Source: a virus. Taken from it: a DNA stretch of 21,930 nt. The stretch spans positions 1 to 21,930 of the IMG/VR virus record IMGVR_UViG_3300032897_000035; one strand, written 5' to 3'. Made by a program: the position numbers and the translations under genes. Below, piece after piece: positions 1 to 21,614 of the stretch; within the stretch, counting starts at the first letter, position 1; every line of letters starts with the position of its first letter. The notes under the pieces were generated by a model that saw nothing but the letters and a program-made list of their open reading frames with translations, did not search any database and had not been told where the DNA came from.

Positions 1-2980
1 AACCTAATGATTCATTTATTTGCTTACCAAACTCTCTTACTGCTTTAAAGGGGTCAATACCCGAATTCACATAACGTATACCCTCAAGACCTTCCTCAGG
101 CCCTTTTACAACAGATTCTTCTGCCAACCTTCTGCTTGTTCTTATCATGTGGCGCAGAGAACCTTCCAGAATAGCTTGGAGTTGATCTTTGGTTATATCT
201 CTTTCTTTCCAACCATTTCGGACCAACCACTCTTTTATTTTAGTAATTATGATATTCTTGATGTTAGCTAGAACACCACTTGCATGTTCTGCTTTTATGT
301 CATTAGCAACAATACCCATGAATTCTTCAAATATGACATCTTTGTCAAAACGAGGATCTTGTCTACCTAACACATCTGAGGGACGATCATACGCTTTCAA
401 ACCCGCATACGAAGGATTTTCTGCCCTAGAATATAAACCCACCATCCCATCCCACTGTTCTTTTACATATTTGTCTCCATGTTCATAAGCAGAATTGATG
501 GCCTCTTTTAATCCATCCCAACCTTCATTACCCAGAAACTCTCTGACCCCTAAATGATTTCCAATTTCATGATAGAGAATGCCTGTTGCTTCTTTAGCAT
601 CAACCTTATTGGATATAATCTTGGCAATTCTTAAAGCTCTTATAGCCCATGCTTTCGAAGAAGCAGGATCGTATGAGTCAGACGGGGTTATTCTCAAAAT
701 TCCACTTTTCTTAAAACCTTCTACTGTATTTTTGCCAAGAGACGCAACCAAATTCTTTTCAATAGGAGCATTCAAAATATTCTTTCTTGCTTCCAAGATA
801 CTATCAACCGCAGCGTTTTGAAAATCTTCTTTTTTGAAGACCTCTTGGATGTTATTGATATGTTCTTCAGATTCGTTTGGAAGAGCTTTTTTTAAATAGG
901 TTTTTAACCTGTCTCCTGCTTCACTCAGCACTGATAAAAACGAATGACCATTCTTCGGAGCTTCTTTGGATACTTCAGATAATATTTTTGGAAAATCAAC
1001 ATCTTTTAGTTCTTCTGGTAAGTCTTTTAACTTCCCTTTGAGAACTTCTGAAAACTCATTAGTATTCAAAGTAGTTGTTATTGCATCAGCATCCATTGCT
1101 GGTAAATAAAATAATTTTTTTTCTGCACGTTTACCTTTCTTACCATAAGAAAGAGCCTTGGTTTCATTTTTATCAGCTTCAAATATTCTTGGATATTTTT
1201 CTCTAAGCCTATTGACTAATCCTTTGCCCATTTCAGTTTGATCTGTTGATCCTAACCAAGGACCATATTTATCTCTGGCTTCCAAGTACAACTGAGCTGC
1301 TACATCTTTACCTCTATGAGCTTTGTCTACTTCAACTTTTCTGACTTCGAAACCGTCATTCTTTTTAGTTATCCACAATCTTCCTATGTCTTTTCCCGAG
1401 TCAGGATCTCTAGCAATCATTTGTTCATCATCAGGTCCCATCAGAGAAACTAAACGATTACCTTGGTAAGAAGTTGACTCTACTATATTTACTTTCTTTT
1501 TGAAATCTGCTTTTTCTTTTTCGATTTCATTGGTAATTTTTTCCCCTTGCTCGCCTTGTTCCACTCTTCTACGTCTACCCCCTTCTTCTCTAATTCCTTC
1601 TTGTGAGTGTTGAAGAATCTCTCCTGCTTCAGGCTTTTGTATGGCACTTTCTTCTCCTAACGCTATTGGTTTATTTTCGCCTTCTGTTGTTGTTACAGGT
1701 CTCTCAGGTTTCCAGATTGGTTCCCCTTCAGGAGTTGTTCCTATCATGGCAGCTTCACCATGGGGCGTAGGAGCACCGTGTTCCATTTTTGCTTCAGGAG
1801 GATTCGCTAGCAATCGTTCCTCTCTAGCTTCAGGAGGAGTCCAACCTAATGTGGGAAGTCCAGCAGGATTTAGAATCTCTCCTTTTTCATTCTTTGCCCC
1901 GAGTAATGATTTTATAGCATTCATTCCTTCACTTACAGTCTTTCTTGCAGTTTCTGGAATGGCGTGTAATGCAAATCCAGTCAGGTATGATTCACTGTAA
2001 GATTCTAACCCAGTCTTTCCCAAGACTCTTTTTGTCCAATCCCATTGAGATTCCCCTGGCTTCGGAGGATCTTCTTGCAACTTTGCATTCACATAATCAT
2101 GGCCCATGTGATTACCAACCATGGCCAGACCACTGAGGTTTGCAGCTTTAGCTATTTGAGCAAAAGTATTACCTGAAGCTTTGGTTAGTTTGCCAGCTCC
2201 ACCAGGTATTACACCCAAAGCAACATCGGGGGCAGCAGCCCAAATATTTATAGCATTTCTTTCTGATGGAGAAAAACCCTGGTCATCCATCATCTTATCT
2301 ACTTCACCAAATCGAGATACTCCCATCATTCCTGCCCCAACAGGAGCCGAAGCTACATAAGGAAGAACCCCACCAACTACATCGGATAATCGATCTTGTA
2401 GGAAACTAATTTTCCCCTTAACCCCTTTAGAGCTTTCCCAAGACTGAGGTCTTATATTCTTTTCCATCTGAAATTCAGATTCAGCTTGTTTTTCTTTTCC
2501 TCTAGCAACCTGCCTAAGCTCTTCAGGAGCGAGTCCATAAGGATTTAATACCCCTGGTGCCTTTTCATAAAACTCTCTACTAACTTTAGAAACCTCAGGA
2601 GTTATTGTTTTCCCCTCTATTTGTTCTCCCACTTTAGGCGTCATCATGTCTGCAAATTTTTCATTCATGCTAGCTGAAAATCTATGCATAGCATTTGATG
2701 CATTCTGAATTGTCCCTAAAGCACTGGACACAAGATGACCAGTTGCGCTTGATTGATAAGCTTTATTCAATGCCTCTTCTGGAACATTCTGTGTGACTAA
2801 ATGTCTTCTTCCTGAAGGAGTGACTATAAACGTTTGTCCATTAGCTACTTCTTCATGTGTAGGTTTCGGCTCTGCCTGTGGAGATTGCGTATTAACAGTA
2901 GGTAATGGAGGAAGCGCCTCAGGAGGAACCCAGTTGTTGCTTACTTGCTCTTTCATTGCCTCAGGAGGAGCCCAGTCCAC
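1..2980 (-). CDS. Large ejection/polyvalent-type virion protein, partial (C-terminus beyond left edge)
   Basis: The frame is open from a GTG at 2980 to the left edge, giving 993 residues with no stop, so the gene is incomplete. The GTG was chosen because AAGGGG lies 5 bases upstream, an in-frame TAA is just above it, and the alternative ATG at 2956 has poor SD spacing. The N-terminus has W-x-PPEA motifs (residues 3-8, 17-22, 380-385). Residues about 190-290 are hydrophobic and glycine/alanine rich. Residues about 505-600 resemble a GNAT fold, with HRGKDV at 555-560 in place of the usual RGxGxA loop. Residues 804-809 read HEIGNH, followed by EEF at 885-887, the HExxxH-plus-Glu pattern of metallopeptidase domains in phage polyvalent proteins. 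By position it matches P22 gp16, the large ejection protein. Entry into the host and enzymatic activity are inferences; family assignment is by motif only. Confidence 0.8.
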   Translation of the reverse strand, partial: MDWAPPEAMKEQVSNNWVPPEALPPLPTVNTQSPQAEPKPTHEEVANGQTFIVTPSGRRHLVTQNVPEEALNKAYQSSATGHLVSSALGTIQNASNAMHRFSASMNEKFADMMTPKVGEQIEGKTITPEVSKVSREFYEKAPGVLNPYGLAPEELRQVARGKEKQAESEFQMEKNIRPQSWESSKGVKGKISFLQDRLSDVVGGVLPYVASAPVGAGMMGVSRFGEVDKMMDDQGFSPSERNAINIWAAAPDVALGVIPGGAGKLTKASGNTFAQIAKAANLSGLAMVGNHMGHDYVNAKLQEDPPKPGESQWDWTKRVLGKTGLESYSESYLTGFALHAIPETARKTVSEGMNAIKSLLGAKNEKGEILNPAGLPTLGWTPPEAREERLLANPPEAKMEHGAPTPHGEAAMIGTTPEGEPIWKPERPVTTTEGENKPIALGEESAIQKPEAGEILQHSQEGIREEGGRRRRVEQGEQGEKITNEIEKEKADFKKKVNIVESTSYQGNRLVSLMGPDDEQMIARDPDSGKDIGRLWITKKNDGFEVRKVEVDKAHRGKDVAAQLYLEARDKYGPWLGSTDQTEMGKGLVNRLREKYPRIFEADKNETKALSYGKKGKRAEKKLFYLPAMDADAITTTLNTNEFSEVLKGKLKDLPEELKDVDFPKILSEVSKEAPKNGHSFLSVLSEAGDRLKTYLKKALPNESEEHINNIQEVFKKEDFQNAAVDSILEARKNILNAPIEKNLVASLGKNTVEGFKKSGILRITPSDSYDPASSKAWAIRALRIAKIISNKVDAKEATGILYHEIGNHLGVREFLGNEGWDGLKEAINSAYEHGDKYVKEQWDGMVGLYSRAENPSYAGLKAYDRPSDVLGRQDPRFDKDVIFEEFMGIVANDIKAEHASGVLANIKNIIITKIKEWLVRNGWKERDITKDQLQAILEGSLRHMIRTSRRLAEESVVKGPEEGLEGIRYVNSGIDPFKAVREFGKQINESLG

Positions 2981-2982
2981 AA

Positions 2983-4035
2983 TTACCCCTTAGTATATTC
3001 TTTACCATTCCAGACAAACTTGGTTCCTTTTGGAAGCTTTTCATATTCAGCTTGAGATGATATTGTAGTAGTTTTGGACGCAGGAGCAGAGGATCTTACA
3101 GGAGCAGTGTTAGCGCGAGCATTGTTCTTCTGCAACTCATTCCTTCTGGTCTCCATAGCTTTGTACTCAGGATAATCATCACTGTCTGTTTCAGGAGTTC
3201 TCCCACCATGATATTTACGGAGCTCGTCCATCCGTTTATCCAACACCTTCACATCCTGAACCTTGCTGAAGGCATAAGTGGAAGCTGTTCCAGGAGCAGG
3301 GATCATATCCATAGCCTGCTCTATAGCTTCCTCATTACTCAATGAATTGTTTCTAGCTTTCAAACTCTTTGCTCGGTACTCTACATTTTGTATCCAACTG
3401 GTAGATCTATCTTTAGCTTTTGTTTTATCTTTTGCATTTTGTATGTAAGCATCTAGTCGTTGTTTAGCTATGTCTTCTTGATTACCCCAATGCTGTATCT
3501 GGGCTAAAGATTTATCTTTCATCAAATCTATTCTTTGCTGCTCACGTTCACCCTTTTGCTCTGCCATAGTTGCTTTATGAGTAGCTTCCATTTCTTTAAG
3601 GGCTGAAGCAGGATCAGTACTTAATCCATGCAACTGCTCAGGGGTGACTACAGAAGTGCTCTCTTCTCCAATAGCATTTCCTTTGGCATCTTTTGGAGTA
3701 TGAGTAAAGGTAACAGCACCATTTTCGTCCTTTCCCCACGTTCCTTGTAATTGAGGATAACTTTTTCCAATGGAACCCATTACAGCATTTGCTTGATCAA
3801 AATTCCCAGTAGAGGCATAGTGTGACGCCATCGAAACGTTTTTGTAAAAGTCTTTATTGTCCTCATCTGGTTCAGACAACTCTTGTTGTTTTTGTTGAGC
3901 ATCCAATCGCAGGTTATTAATCTTCTCCTGAGTCAGTTGTTGCTGAGCAGCTTGTTTTTGGCCTTGCATATAAGCAGCAGGAATGCCAGCTAATGCTCCT
4001 CCTAACATGTCCATGTGAGCATAAGGATTAGCCAT
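2983..4035 (-). CDS. Putative internal virion / DNA ejection protein (P22 gp20 position)
   Basis: This encodes 350 residues. The N-terminus (MANPYAHMDMLGG) is followed by a Gln-rich helical stretch at residues 25-55. The long charged helical middle (about 145-225) is probably coiled coil. The last 25 residues form a small motif (YEKLPKGTKFVWNGKEYTKG) of a type often found at the ends of phage internal proteins. The start codon overlaps the previous stop by one base (TAATG), implying translational coupling, and the stop lies two bases before the next gene's GTG. It sits where P22 keeps gp20, between gp7 and gp16, so I infer a protein packaged in the capsid and ejected with DNA. No catalytic motif is visible. 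Sequence identity to gp20 cannot be claimed; the call rests on order and composition. Confidence 0.6.
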   Translation of the reverse strand: MANPYAHMDMLGGALAGIPAAYMQGQKQAAQQQLTQEKINNLRLDAQQKQQELSEPDEDNKDFYKNVSMASHYASTGNFDQANAVMGSIGKSYPQLQGTWGKDENGAVTFTHTPKDAKGNAIGEESTSVVTPEQLHGLSTDPASALKEMEATHKATMAEQKGEREQQRIDLMKDKSLAQIQHWGNQEDIAKQRLDAYIQNAKDKTKAKDRSTSWIQNVEYRAKSLKARNNSLSNEEAIEQAMDMIPAPGTASTYAFSKVQDVKVLDKRMDELRKYHGGRTPETDSDDYPEYKAMETRRNELQKNNARANTAPVRSSAPASKTTTISSQAEYEKLPKGTKFVWNGKEYTKG

Positions 4036-4724
4036 TAGAAATCTCCTTCTGATTTCGTGAGATAAGGATTAGTTTGATTTGTCGGGGTAGAACCTTGAGT
4101 GACTGTTGTCACCGGAGCAGAACTTTTACTACCAAAGTAATTACCCAAACTACTACCTAACCCACTCATTCCTTTTTGAAGATTACCATAGGCTTCTGCA
4201 GCAGATGCACCAGCAATTCCCGCTTGTTTTCCATACATGTCGCTCAAGCCTTGTTTACTGCGCATTACATTTGCACCCCATTGATTGGACTGATCCTCAC
4301 CCAATAGTCTCATCAGATTATTTTGTTGCTGGATCTTAGCTTGATTGTAAGCAGCAGCCAAGTTAGAATTCAAATTCATTTGCCCTCCACGAAGGAGAGC
4401 AGCAGTGACGCCACTGTTAGAAGCAGGACTCGCTAAAGCTTCTCTGTTAAAATTCCCAAGTTGTCTGTTTAGTATATTTGCTTGTTGATTGTATATCTCA
4501 GGTGTTACTGCTGTGTTTTCTTTTATCAATTCTTTTCTGATGGGATTATAGAGATTCTGCTGATTTAAAAATTGCTGCTCAGCAAAAGATTCGGCTTGTT
4601 GATTTTGCTTCTGTTGCTCTTCAGCTAATTTTTTAGCATCTTCTTGTGCAGACATTCCTTGAATTGCAGATAATCCCATACCTGCAACACTTATGGCAGC
4701 GGGAACGGCTACTGCGGCTGGCAT
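4035..4724 (-). CDS. Putative DNA ejection protein, P22 gp7-like by position
   Basis: This encodes 229 residues. The N-terminus (about 2-24) is a run of Ala/Val/Ile/Gly residues that could form a hydrophobic or amphipathic helix. It is followed by a strongly Gln/Asn-rich helical region (about 30-145), then a Gly/Ser/Ala-rich segment and a Thr/Ser-rich tail. This composition is typical of small podovirus internal or ejection proteins that help form the trans-envelope channel. It directly follows the gp14-like GNAT gene, overlapping it by 16 bases, and precedes the gp20-position gene with a TAATG junction, reproducing the P22 order 14-7-20-16. The role is inferred from that order. No enzymatic motif is seen. 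Confidence 0.6.
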   Translation of the reverse strand: MPAAVAVPAAISVAGMGLSAIQGMSAQEDAKKLAEEQQKQNQQAESFAEQQFLNQQNLYNPIRKELIKENTAVTPEIYNQQANILNRQLGNFNREALASPASNSGVTAALLRGGQMNLNSNLAAAYNQAKIQQQNNLMRLLGEDQSNQWGANVMRSKQGLSDMYGKQAGIAGASAAEAYGNLQKGMSGLGSSLGNYFGSKSSAPVTTVTQGSTPTNQTNPYLTKSEGDF

Positions 4725-5179
4725 GGCATTAACTCCTTTTGCAGAAAAATAACATCAACCACCTCTCTATTCTTGCACATCCATGAATTTTTTAAAACTC
4801 CCATCTCTGTCATCCCACCTTCCCGTGCATACTTTACAGCTAGTCTATTAGTAGAAGGTATTTTGGTAATCAATGTTCTGCATTTATAATGAGCTATTAG
4901 AATCTGTTCAATCATTGCTCTGAGATCTTTGGCAGTCCTTCCTCTCGCATTAGGAAGAAGAGCGGTATGGATTTCTCGACTTTGACTAGTTATCATGTCA
5001 ATTCTATATAACCCATAACAAACATCATCTTCAGAACACAACCAATAATCCAACACTCCATCTAAACAGACAGGATAGAATTCCTCTTGTCCATATTCGG
5101 ACACATGAGGCCATAAGGATGGGTGAGTGATGATCCTCTTTATTGTTTCCTCATTGTGAGTCTGTTCTATGATTAGCAC
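4709..5179 (-). CDS. GNAT-fold head/ejection accessory protein, P22 gp14-like (DUF2824 type)
   Basis: This encodes 156 residues covering a whole GNAT-like domain. It opens with ETIKRIITHPSLWPHVSEYG. A central EIHTALLPNARGRTAKDL segment (about residues 69-86) corresponds to GNAT beta4 and the start of alpha3, and TKIPSTNRLAVKYAREGGM (about 104-122) matches the conserved 'N-x-x-A-x-x-x-A-x-x-x-G-M' helix. This pattern is characteristic of the DUF2824 family that includes P22 gp14, a protein needed for head completion or infectivity. The acetyl-CoA loop is degenerate (ARGRTA), so transferase activity is doubtful. It lies nine bases after the 147-aa gene and overlaps the gp7-like gene, matching the P22 order. 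Confidence 0.75.
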   Translation of the reverse strand: MLIIEQTHNEETIKRIITHPSLWPHVSEYGQEEFYPVCLDGVLDYWLCSEDDVCYGLYRIDMITSQSREIHTALLPNARGRTAKDLRAMIEQILIAHYKCRTLITKIPSTNRLAVKYAREGGMTEMGVLKNSWMCKNREVVDVIFLQKELMPCQPQ

Positions 5180-5188
5180 CTCAAACCT

Positions 5189-5632
5189 CTAAGAAGGACT
5201 ATCTGTTCCCTCAAAAGTGTATTCGATTGATCGCAGATTTGCATTCCCACAAATTTCTAAGTCTATGGTGTGGCCTATCTTTCTACCTATTGGAATATTT
5301 ATTCTTCTGTGTGTATTTGGATTCTCAGACAGCGTGACATTACCATCACATACGTATCGACCATCTATATATACTCTGACTCGTAAGGTCCCAGGAGTAG
5401 AACCATAACCATGAAACTCTACATGAGAAAAGTTCTTTCGATCTGAAACATCTCCTAAACCTTGAGGGCCTGTTCTTATATGGAAAGGAAGTTTAAAACT
5501 CTCATCAGTAAATAATTCAACTATTATGGGCTGAACTGACCCACTAGGTATATCCACAGTTTGGGAGAAAGTACTCTCTGCTTTAGCAAAGTTCACTAAC
5601 CCGGTCATTACTTTTGGTATAAAGGTTGTCAC
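5189..5632 (-). CDS. Beta-rich virion-associated protein of unknown function
   Basis: This encodes 147 residues, predominantly beta-strand by composition, with alternating hydrophobic segments such as GTLRVRVYIDGRYVCDG (about 81-97) and TIDLEICGNANLRSIEYTFE (about 122-141). This suggests a small beta-sandwich. The ATG overlaps the stop of the PKD/Kelch gene (ATGA, four bases), so the two are translationally coupled and probably made together. A tail or fibre-associated accessory role, for example a cap or chaperone for the preceding adhesin-like protein, is an inference from this coupling. I do not recognise the family. Confidence 0.6.
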   Translation of the reverse strand: MTTFIPKVMTGLVNFAKAESTFSQTVDIPSGSVQPIIVELFTDESFKLPFHIRTGPQGLGDVSDRKNFSHVEFHGYGSTPGTLRVRVYIDGRYVCDGNVTLSENPNTHRRINIPIGRKIGHTIDLEICGNANLRSIEYTFEGTDSPS

Positions 5633-7365
5633 GGCAGCACCAATATTTCAGGAGAAGCATCATTAGATGACCCTAGGGACACTAACTTTCCAAACAATTT
5701 TCCAATGCATGCTCGTTCATCCACATACTGATTGGAATTAGAATGTGAATAATTAGTCCATGTGGAAGCTTGGGTGTTGTATACCCCTGTGGCAAGACCT
5801 GTGGAATCTGTAGTATTGTGGAGCATCACATATTTGTGACTGTCAGTATACAATCTAAGTATTCCATTTCCACTAGTAGAAGTCCATCCTAAAGAAATTT
5901 GTGACACAGCATGCGTAGCTTCATTATAAGAAAACAGATAAGAAGAAACTACTGCTCCATCACTAACAATCTGTCCATACCAATAGATGACTCCGTTTAT
6001 TTCTCCCAACAAACTTTGTCTTGACACGCTAGTCACTGTGAAATTTGGACTGGTGTTAGAACTTATCAAAGTCCCTTGGACTCCTTCAGTATAAACTCCA
6101 GGCCATTTGGTGACATAATTGTTATAATGATTTATATAAATGTTGTTGTTTGAAGACAAGAGACTTCCACAACCTCCTCCGAAGTGAGAAGCATAATAAA
6201 GGTATTCGTTGGTCAAGTCTGAATATAATAATTGCAAACCATAATCAGCATCAAAGATACTGTTCGTTGGACTTCCTAAAGGATCTAGACTTATAAAAGA
6301 ATTAGAAGAAGGATCAAACAGTGTTATGTAAGCCATGTGTCTTGTAAGAACTTCTCCACCAACAAAAGAAGAACCTCCCGTGCCGCCGTACAACATGACC
6401 TTTCCATCATGCATCAAACAACTATGGTGTTTGGCTACAGGAGGAATCATTAGCAAACTATAACTGTTGTTGTTTGGAGGATATAGTTCATAAACCCCAA
6501 TGATTGATGTGGGGAGTGAGACTGAACTCCAACTATTAGAAACTGGATTGTATATTTCAGCAACAGTTGATGTTGGGGAATACCCTACTATGAATATTCT
6601 TCCATCATTTAAAAGAACAGCATTACCACCCAAGGAATCAGAGAAGTAAGAGTTGTAACCTATATTAGGACCGGTAGAAGTTGCTCTAGCATCATTCATG
6701 GATGCAATAGGAGTAAAGGCAATTCCATCAAAAATATATGCAGAATTCACCCGTGATCCATTTACCCATCCCCCTGCAATCAACATTCTCCCGTCTGCCA
6801 TTTGGCAACACAAAGAACCCTCAAAATGTCTAGGAAGGGATACTCCGTTCATGACATTCCATCCGGCTGATGGATATACAAATACAGTAGAAGTTTTACT
6901 TCCAGTAGTATCTGTGACACTGTCAGTGACTGTTAATGTTGCAACATGTGCCCCAGTAGTAGTCCAAGTATGGGTAGGGTTTTGTAAAAGAGAAGAATCT
7001 CCGTCATCAAAAGACCACGAATAACCTAAAACAGCATCTGCAAAATTACAAATAGCTGTTCCATCATATTGGATGTCTACGTTTTCTAACGTGGCCCCTC
7101 CAGTAGGATTTATAGAGACAGTTATGGTAGTTTGTATTATATTATCAGTTATAGAATTGTAAGCTGTCTGCCCCAAAGATGTGTTCACACATACAACAGA
7201 AGTTGTGTGGTTTCCAGGAGTATGATATTTGTGAACGGCATATTGACCAGTAGCAGTTCCTCCATCGTCAAACGTCCAAGAATATGTATAAGGCCCATCA
7301 TAATCAGGAACAGGATAATGACCTATGCCTTTAAAAGGAACATACTGCCCAGTGTAATAAGCCAT
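5629..7365 (-). CDS. PKD-domain plus Kelch-type beta-propeller virion protein (putative receptor-binding)
   Basis: This encodes 578 residues. Two PKD-like domains are visible: residues about 27-61 (SWTFDDGG, then YHTPGNHTTSVVCV) and 115-148 (SWSFDDGD, then TWTTTGAHVATLTVTD). From about 168 there are Kelch or galactose-oxidase-type blades, marked by GRMLIAGG (192-199), GRIFIVG (255-261) and GKVMLYGG (321-328), each followed by aromatic strands such as AEIYNPVSNSW. The start ATG directly follows the stop of the 807-aa nozzle protein. Position beside the tail hub and a modular extracellular-type architecture suggest a tail adhesin or spike, but no trimerisation or enzymatic domain was identified. 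PKD and Kelch modules usually bind polysaccharide or protein surfaces. Confidence 0.75.
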   Translation of the reverse strand: MAYYTGQYVPFKGIGHYPVPDYDGPYTYSWTFDDGGTATGQYAVHKYHTPGNHTTSVVCVNTSLGQTAYNSITDNIIQTTITVSINPTGGATLENVDIQYDGTAICNFADAVLGYSWSFDDGDSSLLQNPTHTWTTTGAHVATLTVTDSVTDTTGSKTSTVFVYPSAGWNVMNGVSLPRHFEGSLCCQMADGRMLIAGGWVNGSRVNSAYIFDGIAFTPIASMNDARATSTGPNIGYNSYFSDSLGGNAVLLNDGRIFIVGYSPTSTVAEIYNPVSNSWSSVSLPTSIIGVYELYPPNNNSYSLLMIPPVAKHHSCLMHDGKVMLYGGTGGSSFVGGEVLTRHMAYITLFDPSSNSFISLDPLGSPTNSIFDADYGLQLLYSDLTNEYLYYASHFGGGCGSLLSSNNNIYINHYNNYVTKWPGVYTEGVQGTLISSNTSPNFTVTSVSRQSLLGEINGVIYWYGQIVSDGAVVSSYLFSYNEATHAVSQISLGWTSTSGNGILRLYTDSHKYVMLHNTTDSTGLATGVYNTQASTWTNYSHSNSNQYVDERACIGKLFGKLVSLGSSNDASPEILVLP

Positions 7366-9789
7366 TTAAGCCCCATGTGTTTCATGAACTATTGTAACAG
7401 TGGTTTGAGTGGCCACAGTATCTCTTATAACAGCACGAACTCTTCCTGTCTCATCAGTATGTGCAGCTAACAGTTGAAGAGGAAGAGTGGTTATCGGAAA
7501 CCCTTGTAGTCTCAAATCAACACACACGCAAGTATGTGCTCCATAATTCCCAGTTGTGTTAGTCCAGAATACAAAATACTTTCCATTCCACACAAAAGAT
7601 TTTATATCCCGTATCAACCCTGGGGCAATGTTGTTTAAGTGTTGTGCGTATCCTATTGCCACATCTGATCTTATTCCATCTTCATAAGCAAATGCTGCAT
7701 AGTTGTAAGAAGAGAGCGTAGGGATTAGTCCAGAAAGTTGATTGTTTCCATAACTGGGAGATTGCCAGAAACGAGCAGGAACCGATATATCGGTAATACA
7801 CTTAGCATGCATACCATCAAAACTCATGACGCCCTTGCGGCTCAGATAGAGTAATCCCGCTTCAGTTGTCTTTTGAACAGAATAAGGAGCGATACAACCA
7901 TCTTCTACTAAAGTCTTAGTGACAGTCAATCCTACAGGACTCGTCCCATCCAGTCTGTAAATTGTATCTTCACAAAGAACAATCAAAGATTGAGCAAAAG
8001 ATTCTAATGCAACAGGAGGATAGGGGAATGATTGAGAGAAGACCGCCGGCCATGCGTCAGGTTGTCCTACAGGCGTCCATCTGACAAGATTACCTATTAT
8101 GCCAAAGAACATATCATAGTGTCGTGTGAGCCCAGTAAGACCCACAGGAGCAGGTTCGTAGATTACTTGGACGCCATTATCAACATAATAACTAGTGGGA
8201 GATTCACCTAAGTTTGCATCTGAGATCGTATCTTGGTAAATAGTTTTCCATATAGGAATTTGTTCTACAAGACCATAACTTCCACCACTGCCTATTCTGT
8301 ATAGATTTCTGTAGGTTATGTAGCCGTTCCCTGGAATGAATCTAAAGGATGAAATACTACCAGTTGCGGATATCGTTTGTTGGGAGATGGAGATGCAGAG
8401 ATTTCCATCAGTAACTGGTGTTTCTAGATGCGCCCGATAGGTTCCTGATGTGAACTCAGGATAAGTAGAACGATCTATATAAACCACGTCCCCTTCACTT
8501 ATATCAGGAGATGATTGAGGGGGACTCCATTGACTAGGAGGTGTCCATTCTATATAAGTTTTTGCCACATTAACAGTAAGAGTATCAACCAAATAAGGAA
8601 GGGTGCTGTTTACAACTATTAATGTAGGAGATGCTCCTGTGGTAATAGGAACGATATCTCCTACTTGCACGTCATTAGTATCTGTGAAAAACACACTGTC
8701 ATACTGTGTCAAATTTAAATCAGTATGAAGCGTGAAGGTTGTTGTGTGAAGAATGTAATTGACATAGACACTACCTGCTTCTATAGAAGAAGTTCCAGCA
8801 GAAGCACTGTTTCTAGTGATTATGGTGGTAGTAATGTTGACATTGTTGTTGGAATCTTTAGTCAAAGCATCAGGAGTTCCGTCGGTTATAACTTGTCTGT
8901 TAGGTTGAGAAAAGAATCCATCAGACAAAGGAGTAAAGGTTATCTCTTTCCCAAGAGTAGGATCAAGCATTACAGACAGAGGTGAGACACCAGACTCATC
9001 CAACATGCCCTTGAAGTCTCGCTGAAAAGTATAAGCATATACGTAATTATTTTTAGCAACATAGTTATCTATCGATTCTCCTGAAGTCCAAGACCCATCG
9101 TCAATAGCTGTTAACTGTGAAGAATTCACTTTCAATGCAACAGTTTCATTTCCACTAGATCCTGCAAATATCAAATATCCAACAGCATTAGGAACAGAAT
9201 TCCAAGTCAATGTAGCTGAATGAGTGTGGATTACTGTGGCATTTGAAAAGATGACAGTTACTTCTTGGCAGGGGATTTGAACCCCTCCAGGCAAAATTGC
9301 TGCTACTCGATAGGATCGACTGGTTCCAGTATAATACAAACCTCCAGTGCTGCTCTGAATCACAGACAAGATTAACTTTGTTATTACTGTGTTGGAGGTC
9401 AGAGGAGCTGTGGAAGGAACAAATGTACCGAGAGGAATTTCAATCCCATAAATGCTTTTTTTGGCAGACCCACCATACTCAGTCCAGAAGATTCGATCCT
9501 GTCCTGCTACCGTATCAGAAGCCCAATCTCTCCATCGAGCTGAAGTATAGATCTGATTCTTATATGAAAATATTGATGTTGTATCGTTTGTTGTATTTGC
9601 TATGAAAGTGTAAGCATTAAAAGGACGAGCTTGACCTGAACGAAAGTCAACTCCGTCTGCTACTGAGCACCATCCTTTTGCAAAGATGGAATAATATCCC
9701 GGCATTATGGTAGGTTGCCCTGCAGGCAAAATACTCTTATCAGCTACTACGTTGACACCGCCAGTCAAGTCTAAGCGATAAGATTTCAT
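7366..9789 (-). CDS. Tail nozzle / hub-type structural protein with beta-propeller (P22 gp10 position)
   Basis: This encodes 807 residues. The N-terminus (MKSYRLDLTGGVNVVADKS, then a conserved ADGVDFRSG stretch around 44-52) resembles phage DNA-stabilisation/nozzle proteins. Residues about 150-245 look like a fibronectin-III-type domain (SYRVAAILPGG, ATLTWNSVPNAVGYLIFAG). Residues about 550-700 contain propeller-like repeats (RHYDMFFGIIGNLVRWTPVG, VLCEDTIYRLDG, LLYLSRKGVMSFDG). In P22 the gp10 hub extends the connector and closes the DNA channel; this protein is much longer than gp10, probably through the inserted Fn3-like and intermediate beta domains. The ATG follows the upstream stop by three bases and has only a weak SD, implying reinitiation. 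Function is inferred from motif style and position. Confidence 0.65.
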   Translation of the reverse strand: MKSYRLDLTGGVNVVADKSILPAGQPTIMPGYYSIFAKGWCSVADGVDFRSGQARPFNAYTFIANTTNDTTSIFSYKNQIYTSARWRDWASDTVAGQDRIFWTEYGGSAKKSIYGIEIPLGTFVPSTAPLTSNTVITKLILSVIQSSTGGLYYTGTSRSYRVAAILPGGVQIPCQEVTVIFSNATVIHTHSATLTWNSVPNAVGYLIFAGSSGNETVALKVNSSQLTAIDDGSWTSGESIDNYVAKNNYVYAYTFQRDFKGMLDESGVSPLSVMLDPTLGKEITFTPLSDGFFSQPNRQVITDGTPDALTKDSNNNVNITTTIITRNSASAGTSSIEAGSVYVNYILHTTTFTLHTDLNLTQYDSVFFTDTNDVQVGDIVPITTGASPTLIVVNSTLPYLVDTLTVNVAKTYIEWTPPSQWSPPQSSPDISEGDVVYIDRSTYPEFTSGTYRAHLETPVTDGNLCISISQQTISATGSISSFRFIPGNGYITYRNLYRIGSGGSYGLVEQIPIWKTIYQDTISDANLGESPTSYYVDNGVQVIYEPAPVGLTGLTRHYDMFFGIIGNLVRWTPVGQPDAWPAVFSQSFPYPPVALESFAQSLIVLCEDTIYRLDGTSPVGLTVTKTLVEDGCIAPYSVQKTTEAGLLYLSRKGVMSFDGMHAKCITDISVPARFWQSPSYGNNQLSGLIPTLSSYNYAAFAYEDGIRSDVAIGYAQHLNNIAPGLIRDIKSFVWNGKYFVFWTNTTGNYGAHTCVCVDLRLQGFPITTLPLQLLAAHTDETGRVRAVIRDTVATQTTVTIVHETHGA

Positions 9790-12394: not shown

Positions 12395-12400
12395 TGTGAT

Positions 12401-12787
12401 TTATTCCTTTTCCATGACCTCTTGGGCTTGGGATGCTAATATGTCTTTGATCAAGAACAATTTTCCTTTTGCAGTGCTTCCAAAAACAGAGGCTATTTCT
12501 TTTAACCTCTTTATATCCATGCTTTTTAACTCTTCCTCTGTGTAAATGTGATCTAGTTCATCTGCCAGCTTATCAAAGCTTCGTTCAAAGCATGTTGGTT
12601 CAAGAGCAGCTCTTTTATAAAGAATAGGCCATCGTTGAGATTCCTCTCCTGTCCGTTCGTAAACTACTCCAGTCATAAGATTGGTTATCCGAAAGCATCT
12701 TTTAGAATCTGCTAAATATTGACTTTCCACTAATTTGTCACAAGACTCCATGACAGGTTTTATGTTTCCAAGAATCCTTGGTTCCAT
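12401..12787 (-). CDS. Small protein with C-terminal HeH/SAP-like helical motif
   Basis: This encodes 128 residues. The N-terminal half is unassigned and contains three cysteines (C16, C31, C66). Residues about 84-120 (EEELKSMDIKRLKEIASVFG, then KGKLFLIKDILASQ) match the helix-extension-helix or SAP-like pattern, which in phage proteins often marks a nucleic-acid-binding or head-associated small domain. GAGGAG precedes the ATG with five-base spacing. It is the first gene after the terminator that follows the coat gene, and it directly precedes the adaptor-like genes, so it may act in head completion. That role is inference. Confidence 0.55.
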   Translation of the reverse strand: MEPRILGNIKPVMESCDKLVESQYLADSKRCFRITNLMTGVVYERTGEESQRWPILYKRAALEPTCFERSFDKLADELDHIYTEEELKSMDIKRLKEIASVFGSTAKGKLFLIKDILASQAQEVMEKE

Positions 12788-12798
12788 TGAAACTCCTC

Positions 12799-12829
12799 AA
12801 AAAAGAAGGGATGACCGAAATCATCCCTT
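12799..12829 (-). terminator. Rho-independent terminator after the coat gene
   Basis: A perfect 9-bp stem (AAGGGATGA with TCATCCCTT) closes a 6-base loop at 12806-12829. On the minus strand it is followed by C and then six T residues (12804-12799). It begins 42 bases after the coat stop, and the SD of the next gene comes directly after it. It should end or thin transcription coming through the coat gene. Confidence 0.85.
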
Positions 12830-12870
12830 GGGTCAATTATTATAGTAAGTTACTTGCAGGTAATAGTCAA

Positions 12871-13776
12871 TTACGCAGTGATATTAACCTGAAGTGCAAC
12901 AAGGCAATCTGGCTTGACAGTTTTGAAACCAAAAGCATTTACTGCACGAAGACCTTGCCCTGTGTAATCGATCAAGAAGGGAAGAACTTCGAAGTGAGTA
13001 AACTGAGTAGCCAAAGTGATTGACTCGATATGACCGGCAATTGCGTAGTAGGGGTTGGCAACAGTTCCAGCCCCTGGGATGAATGGAGAAGTGTAGATCT
13101 TGAAACCTTCAAGCTCTCCAACAAAACCTCTTTGCAATGCACCCTGAACTGTTCCAGCATTAAGAGCATAGAGAGGAACAGCTTGTTTTAATCGGGTCAT
13201 CATTGCAGGATGCATTACCAACCAACGATCTTCTTGGGGGGCAAAGCTCATATCCAAAAGTTCATGAGCCTTACTTAAGAACAAAGTAGGAGTGGCATCC
13301 CAGTCACTATAAGTTGCGCCAGTACCAGTTCCTGTTCCAAAGGCATTGTATGCGATAGTGGACTGTGCATCAGCATACACTGAACCCAGAATGGTAGTTT
13401 CAATTCGTATCCTAAGTCTGTTGGCAATTTCATCCATCAGTTCAGGTTGAACGTTTATATCGAACTCATGCATATCAACGATGTCTAAAGGAACAGCAGC
13501 TTCAAACGCATAAGCGATCTCTAACTTCTGCGAGACATCATTGATTGGAGTCCATATGGTCTTTTCATTCTTGACGTAAGGAGATACGGAGATATCAGGT
13601 CTCTGCCTGAGAATCACAGTATTGCCTTTTTCTTTAATCTCTCCCTGCCAGTGCTGATTTGTGATTACGTTGCAAACTGATGCAGCATAAAACTTTGAAA
13701 TCAACCTGGGAGAATATATGGTTGGTATGAAAGCATTGTTTGGGAAATTCATACCAGTTGAAGGAATAGTAGCCAT
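12871..13776 (-). CDS. Major capsid (coat) protein, HK97 fold
   Basis: This encodes 301 residues. The N-terminus runs FIPTIYSPRLISKFYAASV, then HWQGEIKEKGNTVILRQRPD, the pattern of P22-type/phage coat N-arms and E-loop. The middle has ELMDEIANRLRIRIETTILG and the spine helix LSKAHELLDM, followed by DRWLVMHPAMMTRLKQ, GFVGELEGFKIYTSP and the C-terminal QGLRAVNAFGFKTVKPDCLV strand set typical of this coat family. It lies downstream of scaffold and a decoration candidate, with AGGAG eight bases before the ATG. A strong terminator follows the stop, fitting a gene that needs high local expression. Confidence in the role is high; the precise subfamily is not. Confidence 0.9.
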   Translation of the reverse strand: MATIPSTGMNFPNNAFIPTIYSPRLISKFYAASVCNVITNQHWQGEIKEKGNTVILRQRPDISVSPYVKNEKTIWTPINDVSQKLEIAYAFEAAVPLDIVDMHEFDINVQPELMDEIANRLRIRIETTILGSVYADAQSTIAYNAFGTGTGTGATYSDWDATPTLFLSKAHELLDMSFAPQEDRWLVMHPAMMTRLKQAVPLYALNAGTVQGALQRGFVGELEGFKIYTSPFIPGAGTVANPYYAIAGHIESITLATQFTHFEVLPFLIDYTGQGLRAVNAFGFKTVKPDCLVALQVNITA

Positions 13777-13793
13777 TGTTGTTTCTCCTCAGA

Positions 13794-14303
13794 TTAGTAA
13801 CTGGCAGCGCCAAGTTCTTCGGTTTCAATTAACAACTCAACTCTACCTGCAGTAGCACCAGTCCAAGTTCCACCAAGAGTCAACTGGATGGCATTAGCTG
13901 TATAATAAAAAACTGGGGGGTAGACTAAGGTTACAGTATAGCTTCCACTTCCGAGCTGTGTATCTGTGATGTGACTAGAATAGCAAGTTCCAGCAGTAGT
14001 GGTCACATCTGAAGCAGCAATGAAGGCTCCAGAAGATTGGTCACCAACAGCTATCGTTGCGCCAGATACACTGCCACCAGCGACGGGTACGGTGATTATC
14101 ATGTTGATGCTTTTGACTTTCGTCCAAGCACTTATTGTGAGGATATCGATGGTATCTCCAGATGCCGCAGCAGAACCCTTGCAGGTCTTGATATCAGCGA
14201 GATCTATTGTTACACGATGGGTGTCATCTCCTTGCTTTTTAGCCTGATAAAGCATCTTGGCCAGATTAGCAGAAGAGATCATACTGACTGTGCCAGTAGA
14301 CAT
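13794..14303 (-). CDS. Putative capsid decoration / minor head protein
   Basis: This encodes 169 residues, mostly Ala/Gly/Ser/Thr with beta-strand periodicity (MIITVPVAGGSVSGATIAVG, then SYTVTLVYPPVFYYTANAIQ, LGGTWTGATAGRVELLIETE). The N-terminal 25 residues (SSANLAKMLYQAKKQGDD) are helical. AGGAG precedes the ATG with six-base spacing. It lies between scaffold and coat, the usual place for a decoration or minor head protein, and its composition matches small beta-barrel head proteins. No specific family is recognised, so the role is an inference from position. Confidence 0.6.
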   Translation of the reverse strand: MSTGTVSMISSANLAKMLYQAKKQGDDTHRVTIDLADIKTCKGSAAASGDTIDILTISAWTKVKSINMIITVPVAGGSVSGATIAVGDQSSGAFIAASDVTTTAGTCYSSHITDTQLGSGSYTVTLVYPPVFYYTANAIQLTLGGTWTGATAGRVELLIETEELGAASY

Positions 14304-14316
14304 TTCATTCTCCTAG

Positions 14317-15423
14317 TTATTTGTGGTATTTTTGGGCATACTTCTTTTCGTATCGGGTCAGCAGTTTCTCTGCCTCCTCGAATTTTCCAGAGTTTTGTAA
14401 TTTGATTACTTCTGTAGTTATTCTGTTGCCATCACTTAAGTAATCAAACTCTTTGTCTGTCAAAGATCCTGGACCAGCTTCAACAGCAATCGGGGCAGGA
14501 AGATTGGAATTCACTCTTGTTACTCTGTCTCCAAGAGAAGGGGTTTCTGTCTTTCTTTGAATCCCTAGATCTTTTTTGAACATAGTAAGAATGTGACCAA
14601 ACTCTTTCCCACTAACACTCAATGGAGTCTCAACAATGTTTGTTATAAACGACGGTTGTGTAGTTGTCGCCCAATGCAGCATTGCATCATAGTTCTCATT
14701 GAGAAATTCGCGGGCATCAGGGTGAATTGAAGCTATTTCTGCCAGGTGAGCATTGACAGCCATTTGATGTTGGATTTGCTCCAAATTAGTAAATCTAGGA
14801 TCAGCTTTACTTTTGTGAAGCTCTTCTTTCATCTTTTCAATTTCTTGCATTCGTTCATTCAATTTTCTCGAAATATTGGATTCCATCCGAGCGAGTCTTT
14901 TATCGACTCCTTTTGAGATATCCTCGAATTCAGAAAGTTCATCAGGTTCTAATGGAGTATGTGCAGCAGGTTTATTTACACGGTCCATAAGATCGTTCAG
15001 CTTTTCTGTCAAAGAATCTATCTTGCTTGAGAGTTCTTTGTTCTCTCGTTTAAGCTCAGCTCTTTCCTGTTGAAGCTTAGTAAGTTCCGGTTGCTGGTCA
15101 CTTCTACGCTTCCTTTCAGTTGCAGCCTGCTTTTTCCAATAGTTGAGATCTTTTACTTCCTCTTCAGGAATCGGAGGAAGTGTGGTACTAGTACCTGTCT
15201 CAACTGGTGGAGCACTTGGTGGATTCAAAAGAGGATCAGGAGGGGTATCAAGCCTGACAACATTTACGTCCGGGTAAGTCTCAACACTTACAGGACCAAG
15301 CTCGGGCACCTTCGGTTCAAGTTTTGATCTTTCAAGTTGTTCCTCTGCATCAAACAATTGTTGGGCATACATCTTTTCCCCACCAGTCATTTGAGCAATT
15401 TGTTCTTTTGTATAAGTGGCCAT
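14317..15423 (-). CDS. Scaffolding protein
   Basis: This encodes 368 residues with typical scaffold make-up: few aromatic residues, a Pro-rich stretch (about 58-90), then a strongly charged coiled coil at 92-150 (ELTKLQQERAELKRENKE) and a second at 168-207. The C-terminal 40 residues are helical and end in a basic segment (LLTRYEKKYAQKYHK), like the coat-binding C-terminal helices of P22 scaffold. AAGGAG lies five bases before the ATG. A sigma70-like promoter and structured leader sit directly upstream. It should assemble inside the procapsid and leave before or during packaging; no protease motif is visible. Confidence 0.8.
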   Translation of the reverse strand: MATYTKEQIAQMTGGEKMYAQQLFDAEEQLERSKLEPKVPELGPVSVETYPDVNVVRLDTPPDPLLNPPSAPPVETGTSTTLPPIPEEEVKDLNYWKKQAATERKRRSDQQPELTKLQQERAELKRENKELSSKIDSLTEKLNDLMDRVNKPAAHTPLEPDELSEFEDISKGVDKRLARMESNISRKLNERMQEIEKMKEELHKSKADPRFTNLEQIQHQMAVNAHLAEIASIHPDAREFLNENYDAMLHWATTTQPSFITNIVETPLSVSGKEFGHILTMFKKDLGIQRKTETPSLGDRVTRVNSNLPAPIAVEAGPGSLTDKEFDYLSDGNRITTEVIKLQNSGKFEEAEKLLTRYEKKYAQKYHK

Positions 15424-15428
15424 TTAGG

Positions 15429-15455
15429 CTCCTTGTAGAGGTCCTTATAAAGGAG
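15429..15455 (-). promoter_or_regulatory. Leader with two mutually exclusive hairpins over the scaffold SD
   Basis: In the minus-strand transcript CTCCTT (15455-15450) can pair with the scaffold SD AAGGAG (15434-15429) over a 15-base loop. The same bases can instead form a local hairpin TCCTT/AAGGA (15454-15442) with a 3-base loop, which frees the SD. A switch in translation is inference; pairing is visible. Confidence 0.35.
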
Positions 15456-15461
15456 TAGTCT

Positions 15462-15482
15462 ACTGTATAAAAATTATACAGT
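15462..15482. repeat. Inverted repeat overlapping the scaffold promoter
   Basis: Two 9-base arms, ACTGTATAA and TTATACAGT, are separated by AAA. The repeat covers the -10 box of the minus-strand promoter and the end of the 68-aa gene. No T-tract follows on the minus strand, so an operator is more likely than a terminator. Confidence 0.6.
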
Positions 15483-15502
15483 TAGTCTTCAAACAAAGTC
15501 AA
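15473..15502 (-). promoter_or_regulatory. Sigma70-like promoter for scaffold, decoration and coat genes
   Basis: On the minus strand TTGACT (15502-15497) and a perfect TATAAT (15478-15473) are 18 bases apart. The -35 box lies inside the last codons of the 68-aa gene. The start point would fall about 15466, upstream of the scaffold SD. It would raise scaffold-decoration-coat expression up to the terminator at 12799. Confidence 0.6.
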
Positions 15503-15688
15503 CAATGATTGTAACTTCCTTATGGCCCCTTGGGACCTATATATCAAATGAGGTTCGAATTGACGATCTACTACCAACTGTTCCATTGCTATTAAAGCAT
15601 TTACATACTCTGTAAAAGCAATCCGTGTGTCCTTATTCATTTTCAACAAGAGGTCGTTTTCTAGTTTAGTTAGAACATTTTTGTTCAT
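15482..15688 (-). CDS. Small helical protein between portal and scaffold
   Basis: This encodes 68 residues, helical throughout (LTKLENDLLLKMNKDTRIAF, then VNALIAMEQLVVD and IRKLQSLLTLFED). GGAGG lies six bases before the ATG and inside the end of the portal gene, so it is clearly translated after portal. The C-terminal codons also carry the -35 box of the scaffold promoter. A minor head-assembly role is possible from position only; I do not recognise the family. Confidence 0.6.
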   Translation of the reverse strand: MNKNVLTKLENDLLLKMNKDTRIAFTEYVNALIAMEQLVVDRQFEPHLIYRSQGAIRKLQSLLTLFED

Positions 15689-15690
15689 GA

Positions 15691-18027
15691 CTATCCTCCG
15701 TTTGGTTTCATACCTGCCATCTTGACAGCATGCTCTTGTTTACTAGTTTCTAATCTTTCTTTGTGACGATGCGCATGTAATTCAGTAGGACCTATCTCTC
15801 TATTAGCAGCTTCTGTTCCCATTTGGTGAACCGTATCATGATCTTTAACTTCTTGCATTGCAATGGCATCCTCAAAAGATTTTTGCAAATCAGGAGTTAT
15901 GTTGCCAGATTCAGCCAAAACCTTTTCTATAAGTTTTAGTTTGAGAGCTGTGCATTCTTCAGGGACAGCTTCCATTGCTTGCAGTAACATATCTTGAGGA
16001 GTAGTCTGAGCGCGCATCTTTTCATTTGCTGCTTGTTGCTGCTCAGCTTGCATATTTATGCCTGATTGTAACTGAGCTGCTGCTGCTTGATTGACAGCCT
16101 GCATTTGTTGTTCCTGCTCATCACGGGCTCTTTGTTCAGTTTCTGTAAAGAAAATATGCTCATCAACCAATCCTGAACCCTTCATGTTTAATTCCGAAAC
16201 ACGATTCCAGTCCACACGTTTGGCTGCTTCAGGATTTTGAACTACTGTAGTTAATAGATTTGCTAATTTTTGATTAGCAATGTCCCGTGCCATCAGACCA
16301 GACAAACCTTTAGCCGTAACCTTAAAGTCTCCAACAATTGAAGGGTCTTTGCTAAACTTCAAATTGAACCTGATCATATCCCCAATCATAGGGGCTATCA
16401 AGCAATTATCCAAATTGGAAGCTACTACTTTCATGGGAGTTAAGGCATTGTTGAACTGTAATTGAGCACCGCTTGAGGTTCTATTGTGAACACCTTCCCC
16501 ACTCTCACCTTGCAACATTTTAGGTAGAGATGTTTGTTCATCAGATAAATTCATATGAAACTGCATCAACTTTAAAAATTCATCTAGATGAGACTGAGGA
16601 TTAAAAAAGATTATAGGATTTGGAGTAGCACCAGGAAGCTCTGACTCTTCTACCCTAAAGATTTTCCAAGGAGCTATTTCCATAGCTTCTTCTCCAGGGG
16701 CTAGCCTGTTAGTGTGCACCACAGTCATAGGCCCAGCAATCATAGCCATGTTATCACATGCAGAACGAGCTGCTGCATTGATCATGTCTTGAGAATCCCA
16801 CATGTACTCAGCAGGGCCTGAACCCCAAATGGAATGAGGGACCATGTTGTAAGGTGTGAAGTAGAATGGTAATTTGCATCTATATAAATCAGAGACTTGA
16901 AGATAAATTACGCGTCCACCTAACACCCATACTTGGCACATCACTTGTTCGTAACGCTGTGATTCTTCTATCTTGATACCAGCTTTTTCAATGTCATCCC
17001 CGCTCAAGAATCCCCATCGAATTTTTACAATGAAACGATCTGCAGGACAATTCATCTGAAACTGTTGGTTGGTTATGTTTATGACTGATTCCCATCGTTC
17101 AGGTGTCCAATCACCATTCTTGGTTTTCTGCAAAACTTCTTTTATGATGTCAGCTTTGAATCCATCGAGTTTTGTCAAATCCATAACCTGACTTCTGTTC
17201 AATACTTTTCGTATTGTAACAAACATCAAATCTTCAGTTTTATGAGCAGCAGGGTCAGGATATACTTCAAAAGGATTATAAGCTTCTAATTGTGGACGAT
17301 ATTCATCCACATAACCTGAGGCTTCCATCGAAGGAAGATTTATAATCTTTTGCCATCGTTTCATCAACTCAGGATCTTCATTTCGTTTGGCAGCTTCAGG
17401 ACTCTGGTAAGTAGGAACAGCGAAAGGCGCTCCTACTATAGAAATCCCGTATTCACATAAATGTAGAGTTGTTTGTTGTAATACCATAGCCCAATTGGTC
17501 TCATCCAATTGGCTGCTTATCTTTCTTGTCATATTTTCAGCAGCTTTGTCTGCGGCTTCTTTTATTGCTTTTCTTATATCTTCAGGAGGAAGATTTTTTT
17601 GAAGTAGTTGTAGTAATAGTTCTGGAATAAAAGGATCTCTTGTCGAAGACACATCCCAGGCATTCTCTCCAGGAGGAAGTGCTACTTCCATCAACCTAGC
17701 ATGAGCGTTAGATACTTTAGGACGAGTGACTTGAACAAAGACTCTAGAATTACCACCGTTGTAATTTATGTCAGGAGAATACACACCTTTACAATTCTGA
17801 TGGCATCGTATCCAAATGTTTTCTTGGAATAGTCTGGCCGAACGACATTGAGTAAACTCATCCTCAACTTTAGCCGCAAGATGGTCTATCTCCTCATCAT
17901 CAGCTCGTTGTAGTATTTTTGCTACTTTTGATTCAGAAGATTCTGGCTTCTGAAACAAATCTTGATAAGAATTATCTGTTGGATTGTTTAACTTTTGTGG
18001 TCCTTGAGATGGATCTTCATAGGCCAT
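15691..18027 (-). CDS. Portal protein, large podovirus type
   Basis: This encodes 778 residues, close to the long P22-like class. The N-terminus has a helical EDEFTQCRSARLFQENIWIR region, then the wing and stem regions (YNPFEVYPDPAAHKTEDLMF, PFYFTPYNMVPHSIWGSGPA, SQDMINAAARSACDNMAMIA), typical of this portal family. From about residue 630 the C-terminus is Gln/Ala rich (QEQQMQAVNQAAAAQ) and helical, matching a barrel or crown extension into the head. The ATG is two bases after the large terminase stop, with GGAG as SD. It forms the 12-subunit vertex through which DNA is packaged and ejected. The last 40 residues are His/Lys/Glu rich. Confidence 0.9.
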   Translation of the reverse strand: MAYEDPSQGPQKLNNPTDNSYQDLFQKPESSESKVAKILQRADDEEIDHLAAKVEDEFTQCRSARLFQENIWIRCHQNCKGVYSPDINYNGGNSRVFVQVTRPKVSNAHARLMEVALPPGENAWDVSSTRDPFIPELLLQLLQKNLPPEDIRKAIKEAADKAAENMTRKISSQLDETNWAMVLQQTTLHLCEYGISIVGAPFAVPTYQSPEAAKRNEDPELMKRWQKIINLPSMEASGYVDEYRPQLEAYNPFEVYPDPAAHKTEDLMFVTIRKVLNRSQVMDLTKLDGFKADIIKEVLQKTKNGDWTPERWESVINITNQQFQMNCPADRFIVKIRWGFLSGDDIEKAGIKIEESQRYEQVMCQVWVLGGRVIYLQVSDLYRCKLPFYFTPYNMVPHSIWGSGPAEYMWDSQDMINAAARSACDNMAMIAGPMTVVHTNRLAPGEEAMEIAPWKIFRVEESELPGATPNPIIFFNPQSHLDEFLKLMQFHMNLSDEQTSLPKMLQGESGEGVHNRTSSGAQLQFNNALTPMKVVASNLDNCLIAPMIGDMIRFNLKFSKDPSIVGDFKVTAKGLSGLMARDIANQKLANLLTTVVQNPEAAKRVDWNRVSELNMKGSGLVDEHIFFTETEQRARDEQEQQMQAVNQAAAAQLQSGINMQAEQQQAANEKMRAQTTPQDMLLQAMEAVPEECTALKLKLIEKVLAESGNITPDLQKSFEDAIAMQEVKDHDTVHQMGTEAANREIGPTELHAHRHKERLETSKQEHAVKMAGMKPNGG

Positions 18028-21178: not shown

Positions 21179-21384
21179 CCAAGAAAAAGACAATGAAACA
21201 ACCTTTGATCAAACCTGAGAATAAAGGAAAGTTTACTAAGAAGGCTAAAGAACATGGTGAAAGTGTTTCTAAATACGCAAAGGAGGTTTTACAAGAAGGA
21301 AGTAAAGCAAGCGCAACTACAAAGAAGGAAGCTAATTTTGCTCGTAACGCCAAGAAATGGAATCATTCTAAAAAGGGAAAATAA
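21172..21384 (+). CDS. Small basic protein (FARNAKKW type)
   Basis: This encodes 70 residues, about a third Lys. The middle FTKKAKEHGESVSKYAKEVL (21-40) looks like a short helix-turn-helix unit, and NFARNAKKW (55-63) is a tail motif that I associate with small conserved phage proteins of unknown function found near terminase genes. It directly follows a promoter and ends in TAATG with the next gene, so the two are co-translated. Nucleic-acid binding is suggested by charge only. Family identity is from memory of the pattern and unsure. Confidence 0.6.
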   Translation: MATKKKTMKQPLIKPENKGKFTKKAKEHGESVSKYAKEVLQEGSKASATTKKEANFARNAKKWNHSKKGK

Positions 21385-21614
21385 TGTTTGAAAGAACACA
21401 GTTCGTCAGTTGTATCACTGATGATTTATTAAAGGAGCTAGGAATGGCTGCAAAGAAAGCAGAGCATATAACACTAAAGAAAGTTCATGCCAAACATGAG
21501 AAAGAGCACAAAGAGGTTCATGCTAAGCATGAGTCTGCTCACAAAACAATGCACTCTAAACATGAGAAGGAAGTCAAAAAAGTGCATGAGAAGTATGAAA
21601 AGAAGAAGAAGTAA
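21384..21614 (+). CDS. His/Lys-rich 11-residue repeat protein
   Basis: This encodes 76 residues from the ATG at 21384, which shares a base with the previous stop and has AAGGGA nearby. An internal ATG at 21444 has a better SD (AAAGGAG, six bases away) and would give 56 residues starting MAAKKAEH, so either or both may be used. Residues 32-75 are four 11-residue repeats on the plan K-x-(V/M)-H-x-K-(H/Y)-E-x-x-(H/V/K), a hendecad-type coiled coil with nine histidines. Metal binding, acid sensing or DNA binding are possible. A strong terminator follows 20 bases downstream. Function unknown. Confidence 0.65.
   Translation: MFERTQFVSCITDDLLKELGMAAKKAEHITLKKVHAKHEKEHKEVHAKHESAHKTMHSKHEKEVKKVHEKYEKKKK
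21477..21608 (+). repeat. Four tandem 33-base units inside the His/Lys-rich gene
   Basis: The coding sequence repeats every 33 bases, encoding KKVHAKHEKEH, KEVHAKHESAH, KTMHSKHEKEV and KKVHEKYEKKK. Base identity between units is partial, so copies have diverged while protein period is kept. Confidence 0.8.

Follow-up and report, generated by a model that had tools for sequence, protein, structure and literature searches.

What does the giant reading frame at the left end of this contig encode, and what would its product do when the phage enters a cell? The frame lies in the window, that is, the whole 21,930-bp stretch analysed (IMG/VR record IMGVR_UViG_3300032897_000035), which derives from an uncultivated, probably short-tailed phage. 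Terminase, portal, capsid, hub, gp14-like and ejection genes were found in this record, all on the minus strand like the giant gene, which adjoins virion structural genes as those of polyvalent proteins do. We propose, with a probability of about 0.78, that the frame codes for the first half of a polyvalent protein of the phage type in the third ejection position (gp7-gp20-gp16), with swappable cargo and a peptidase most likely engaged in self-processing. The features on which this proposal draws are collected in Table 1.

Table 1. Features of the giant frame and of the genes preceding it (window coordinates).
Feature	Coordinates	Strand	Basis
N-terminal 993 aa of gp16-position polyvalent protein; C-terminus past the contig	2..2980	-	continuation inferred from sister contig L003 and syntenic single ORFs of L096 and L104
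AAGGGG, ribosome-binding-like site ahead of GTG 2980	2986..2991	-	sequence
Pro-rich start, MDWAPPEA..NNWVPPEALPPL	2801..2980	-	like GLPPGE repeats opening the relatives; by eye, match not significant
Hydrophobic stretch, residues 198-219; possible membrane-active segment	2324..2389	-	hydropathy
GNAT-like segment, residues ~523-600, motif A RGKDVA	1181..1414	-	PF13508, sub-threshold
HExxxH metallopeptidase-like domain, residues 789-955	116..616	-	family profile, masked profile, shuffles, reciprocal search
HEIGNH, residues 804-809; expected zinc ligands H804 and H809, expected general base E805	554..571	-	sequence, family alignment
E885-E886-F887; E886 expected third zinc ligand	320..328	-	family alignment
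Junction NSGIDPFKAVREFGKQINESLG, like HAGLNPFEAVRDAAEAAKKELG right behind the ART of L104	2..67	-	weak, E = 0.18
gp20-position protein, 350 aa	2983..4035	-	position matched by 432-aa (L104) and 364-aa (L097) ORFs
gp7-like DNA-ejection protein, 229 aa	4035..4724	-	PHROG 21132 'DNA ejection', E = 0.0016 (weak); 27% identity to L104 gp7 slot, E = 4e-10
P22 gp14-like head-morphogenesis protein (DUF2824)	4709..5179	-	PHROG 651, E = 4.5e-14; PF11039, 28.3 bits, above cut-off

The giant frame starts with GTG and was still open at window base 2. A preliminary description had read in it HEIGNH at residues 804-809, EEF at 885-887 and a GNAT-like stretch (VEVDKAHRGKDVAAQLY) at 549-565; each was recovered once, at exactly those residues. 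No significant direct homologue of the window protein was detected in IMG/VR, phages, plasmids, GTDB contigs or the PDB, and Pfam, NCBIfam and the PDB yielded no match over threshold. PADLOC gave no match. Weak Pfam, PHROG and NCBIfam matches (tRNA-splicing endonuclease, DhiA, FNIP_C and others) lay far under the respective cut-offs and were rejected.

The frame probably continues in a second contig from this virus, here called the sister contig (IMGVR_UViG_3300032893_000181), which shared 5,472 bp with the right end of the window at 100% identity and whose far end opened with a 967-aa frame, open on its 5' side. The left end of the window showed no sequence overlap with this contig, and an unsequenced gap lies at the join. 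Two relatives, L096 (a 27.8-kb record with a terminase 39% identical to that of the window) and L104 (IMGVR_UViG_3300035180_000231, 23.8 kb), each carried a single ORF of 1,673 or 1,791 aa after the gp7-like and gp20-position genes. The 967-aa frame matched the C-terminal part of these ORFs (E = 9e-46 for L096 and 5e-49 for L104; 25-26% identity over ~650 aa), and the gene following the giant ORF in L104 matched the gene following it in the sister contig. Because L096 and L104 carry single ORFs in the same slot that match the 967-aa frame, the window frame most likely encodes the N-terminal portion of one protein, at least 1,960 aa long, whose two parts are joined by synteny. Several small ORFs of the sister contig (L003, about 12400-18000) shared MELGK or EIGERLW type sequence and may form a paralogous family.

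The genes upstream of the giant frame followed the P22 order gp14-gp7-gp20-gp16, the gp14-like and gp7-like genes being recognised by profile and the gp20 counterpart by position only. PHROG 21132 was clearer in the gp7-like counterparts of L104 (E = 4.6e-10) and of a terminase-related phage, G011 (L097, IMGVR_UViG_3300037471_001742; E = 2.3e-5). The same run, a gp7-like gene, a 432- or 364-aa ORF and a giant protein, recurred in L104 and G011, the last member in G011 being 3,089 aa long. No homologue of the 350-aa gp20-position protein was detected among Pfam and PHROG profiles; sequence comparison with the counterparts in the relatives did not clearly establish homology, and the correspondence is one of position. 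The earlier assignment to the P22 gp16 slot was upheld by the gene order after the gp14-like and gp7-like genes, but not by gp16 sequence similarity: PHROG, Pfam, the PDB and tblastn in 50,697 phage records revealed no homology to P22 gp16, and 'gp16' therefore denotes position only. Also in the window, a 578-aa virion-region protein (5629-7365, minus strand) carried two PKD-like repeats and, after them, Kelch-like stretches (MADGRMLIAGGW), and a 76-aa protein (21384-21614, plus strand) ended in His/Lys/Glu-rich repeats (HAKHEKEHKEVHAKHESAHKTMHSKHEKE). Locus L004 encoded a 156-aa pentapeptide-repeat protein (2834-3304, minus strand; ADLSGADLSGADL), possibly a DNA mimic, and a phage-encoded 240-aa trypsin-like serine protease (8413-9135, plus strand; GQGSGFAITPHIICTCQHVV).

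HEIGNH is of the HExxxH type, with four residues between the histidines, rather than the canonical HExxH. Iyer et al. 2017 (PMC5512222) described a clade of polyvalent-protein metallopeptidases (MPTases) that combine HEXXXH with a Glu located in the conserved helix that follows. We scanned IMG/VR with the pattern HE-x-hydrophobic-GH-x-G-hydrophobic-R/S-x-hydrophobic-hydrophobic-G, part of which was modelled on the window. The scan returned at least 120 in-frame motifs, whose ORFs ranged from 297 to 4,275 aa (median 1,837 aa among the matches listed); these loci (L107-L226) represent a large peptidase-like family in giant phage proteins, and in none of the six members tested did the domain match a Pfam model. 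A family profile was built from 71 non-redundant HExxxH phage proteins; scores from a profile to which the window sequence had been added are circular and were left out. Window residues 789-955 scored 31.0 bits against this profile (E = 1e-8 for 1,000 sequences), with HEIGNH, EEF and the next amphipathic helix all in register. Since the search pattern was partly modelled on the window, we masked the motif region over 14 or 30 residues as a control. The masked score was 15.9 bits with either mask, compared with at most 8.4 bits in 500 shuffles and 8.6 bits for the best non-family ORF among related-phage loci. A reciprocal search with the window segment recovered 12 ORFs at E < 1 among 7,218, and all 12 belonged to the HExxxH family. 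Against PDB sequences the family profile gave nothing significant, a snake-venom metalloproteinase appearing at E = 0.76.

At ~20% identity to the family, the window domain retained H804, E805, H809 and E886. E886 was invariant in the family alignment with the window added (72 of 72), while E885 was kept in 65 and replaced by Asp in seven; neither residue was part of the search pattern. The conserved Glu partner that the preliminary description had anticipated for HEIGNH is thus present as E886, but E885 is not invariant. A Gly preceded the second His in all sampled relatives and not in the window (HExxGH vs HEIGNH); this conservation is uninformative because the search pattern required that Gly. 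In 257 Gb of bacterial and archaeal DNA, HE[FLIMV]GNHxG[FLIMV]R occurred in 23 stretches against ~15 expected by our estimate, and none of the frames encoding them matched the HExxxH family. The HEIGNH motif by itself is not diagnostic; the surrounding region is. With an H-E-x-x-x-H motif, a Glu in the following helix and a sequence match outside the motif, the region is firmly placed by profile as a divergent HEXXXH-clade metallopeptidase-like domain, and it is predicted to bind zinc and to be proteolytic.

The GNAT-like segment scored 16.8 bits with PF13508 at residues 523-570 (E = 1.6e-4 within this record), short of the cut-off of 27, and was not matched by PF00583. Among 31 other records PF13508 matched in only one, at 12.2 bits. 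The HExxxH protein of locus L137 had a GNAT motif, QQRQGIG, and a PF13508 score of 24.5 bits; its direct alignment with the window segment was not significant. Motif A of the window, RGKDVA, departs from Q/RxxGxG/A by an Asp for the first Gly. What had been described earlier as a GNAT-like stretch with Asp at the usual Gly shows that Asp and a weak PF13508 match, but falls under the GNAT cut-off, and because no GNAT model matched over its curated cut-off we use the label 'GNAT-like' only. GNATs do occur in polyvalent proteins (Iyer et al. 2017, PMC5512222). Taken together, the window protein holds one firm domain (HExxxH) and one probable domain (GNAT-like).

Comparison of the two relatives revealed replacement of cargo in a conserved frame. 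From L104 residue 737 onwards to the C-terminus, L104 and L096 shared 67-98% identity (87-98% over most of the C-terminal part), and at residues 377-556 they shared 75-93% (81% as flank). At residues 558-713 L104 carried ART-PolyVal (PF18760, E = 5.8e-23), where L096 had a short linker, and sequence and profile comparison found the HExxxH domain in neither. The GNAT-like and peptidase-like modules of the window occupy the corresponding region, ahead of the conserved core. The locus thus shows the interchangeable cargo of polyvalent proteins, ART-PolyVal being present in L104 and absent in L096. The core itself did not match LPD38 (Pfam; hhalign probability 0.1); among nine complete HExxxH-family proteins, LPD38 was found in six, and InPase, ART-PolyVal, zeta toxin, ddrB-ParB, MuF_C, PBECR1 and one GNAT also occurred. 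The 3,089-aa protein of G011 (L097, 247-9513, minus strand), with SLT, InPase, LPD5, LPD1, HExxH (1594) and HExxxH (2028), is a clearer example of the slot. The HExxxH profile match, the ART-PolyVal domain that a syntenic relative carries at the corresponding place and the position after the ejection genes support the earlier reading of the window product as a polyvalent protein.

We considered whether the peptidase-like region is a peptidase at all. HEIGNH could be a chance match in an ordinary helical ejection protein without peptidase ancestry, as might be suspected from the near-chance frequency of the motif alone in bacterial genomes, in non-family frames. An AlphaFold model from the 72-sequence alignment (pLDDT 64.5, pTM 0.53) did not form the expected upstream sheet, and Foldseek searches of this sheet-less model against the PDB and BFVD, and VIA-align, returned only helical coincidences (Z ≤ 3.4) and listed no zincin, a result that we regard as uninformative. 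A single-sequence model (pLDDT 50) was discarded. The masked score well above both the shuffles and the best non-family ORF, the reciprocal matches, E886 in register and a relative that carries known polyvalent cargo at the corresponding place nevertheless make coincidence very improbable. A degenerate relic, in which the ligands were kept by descent, sheet and spacing decayed and the domain serves only as a structural spacer, would fit the missing sheet (pLDDT ~53-57 upstream of the motif), HEIGNH in place of HExxGH and a match to the family that is weak for a member. We consider a relic unlikely: all four predicted catalytic-site residues are kept at ~20% family identity, the Gly of the relatives was imposed by the search pattern, and the helices round the site, those of HEIGNH and of E886 (model residues 156-171), were predicted with pLDDT mostly ~80-91.

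The substrate of such a peptidase is a further point of choice. The preliminary description favoured attack on host targets at entry, Iyer et al. name it among the options (PMC5512222), and the peptidase sits amid other effector cargo. For polyvalent MPTases Iyer et al. 2017 proposed both self-processing and host-target roles, but favoured processing as the common theme, citing P1 DdrB (PMC5512222). Moreover, L104 (ART) and L096 (nothing in the cargo region) lack the peptidase, so that no essential host target need be assumed; this weakens obligatory self-processing as well. That the enzyme chiefly attacks host proteins after injection, and not its own polypeptide, is in our view improbable; by analogy with P1 DdrB it most probably processes the polypeptide of which it is part.

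On this self-processing reading, an N-terminus that is rich in Pro and partly hydrophobic, together with a conserved core of ~620 aa in the C-terminal part (sister contig), would frame a central cargo region, filled here by the GNAT-like segment and then the HEXXXH zincin-like domain, and in relatives by an ADP-ribosyltransferase or a linker only. By its position, and by analogy with P22/T7 ejection proteins and polyvalent proteins, the protein would be packaged and ejected together with the gp7- and gp20-position proteins, and the core may aid DNA entry. The predicted peptidase, with H804, H809 and E886 on zinc and E805 as base, would then cut the polypeptide and free the cargo from the conduit; possibly it would also cut host proteins. 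The GNAT-like module, if active, would acylate a host target.

Several known systems resemble this protein. The P22 gp16 and T7 gp16 ejection proteins (reviewed in PMC8954989) share with it the position after gp14-like, gp7-like and gp20-position genes and hydrophobic stretches, whereas P22 gp16 is 609 aa long, shows no detected sequence similarity and has not been described with a giant multidomain architecture. The C1 domain of the N4 virion RNA polymerase (PMC12633501) likewise places a zincin-type motif in an ejected giant protein, but the motif is HExxH instead of HExxxH, and no RNA polymerase module was detected in the window protein. Stenotrophomonas phage StenR_269 encodes a 2,270-aa protein (L009, 22776-29588, plus strand) that bears the annotation virion RNA polymerase and has two HExxH motifs and no Pfam match. 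The L104 ART-PolyVal protein has the same position, a homologous C-terminal core (26%) and a similar Pro-rich start, and carries ART where the window protein has the GNAT-like segment and the peptidase. Closest in kind are the HEXXXH polyvalent proteins of Iyer et al. 2017 (PMC5512222), which are likewise large, multidomain, near virion genes and equipped with HExxxH and a downstream Glu, and in which effector-type cargo including GNAT and ART co-occurs, as in the window group. The window copy differs from them in being highly divergent, in having HEIGNH and not the sampled HExxGH, and in a core that is not detectably LPD38.

The polyvalent strategy and the HEXXXH clade are already known, and the window protein is a new, divergent example of them. 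It puts the abundant HExxxH family, with at least 120 motifs in large phage proteins of IMG/VR, into an ejection block of P22 order, at the position of gp16, in a group in which cargo is exchanged between close relatives. A bolder reading, which we offer only tentatively, sees in the third ejection protein of this P22-order group a natural chassis for delivering proteins: host-acting enzymes (ART, or a GNAT-like module with a self-releasing HExxxH peptidase) would be swapped between a conserved front and back, and the HEIGNH variant, with its Gly shifted at the helix bend, would still be zinc-catalytic. If such delivery holds true, it would link podovirus DNA-ejection proteins to injected effectors and would offer a natural system for how a virus frees enzymes from its own entry machine.
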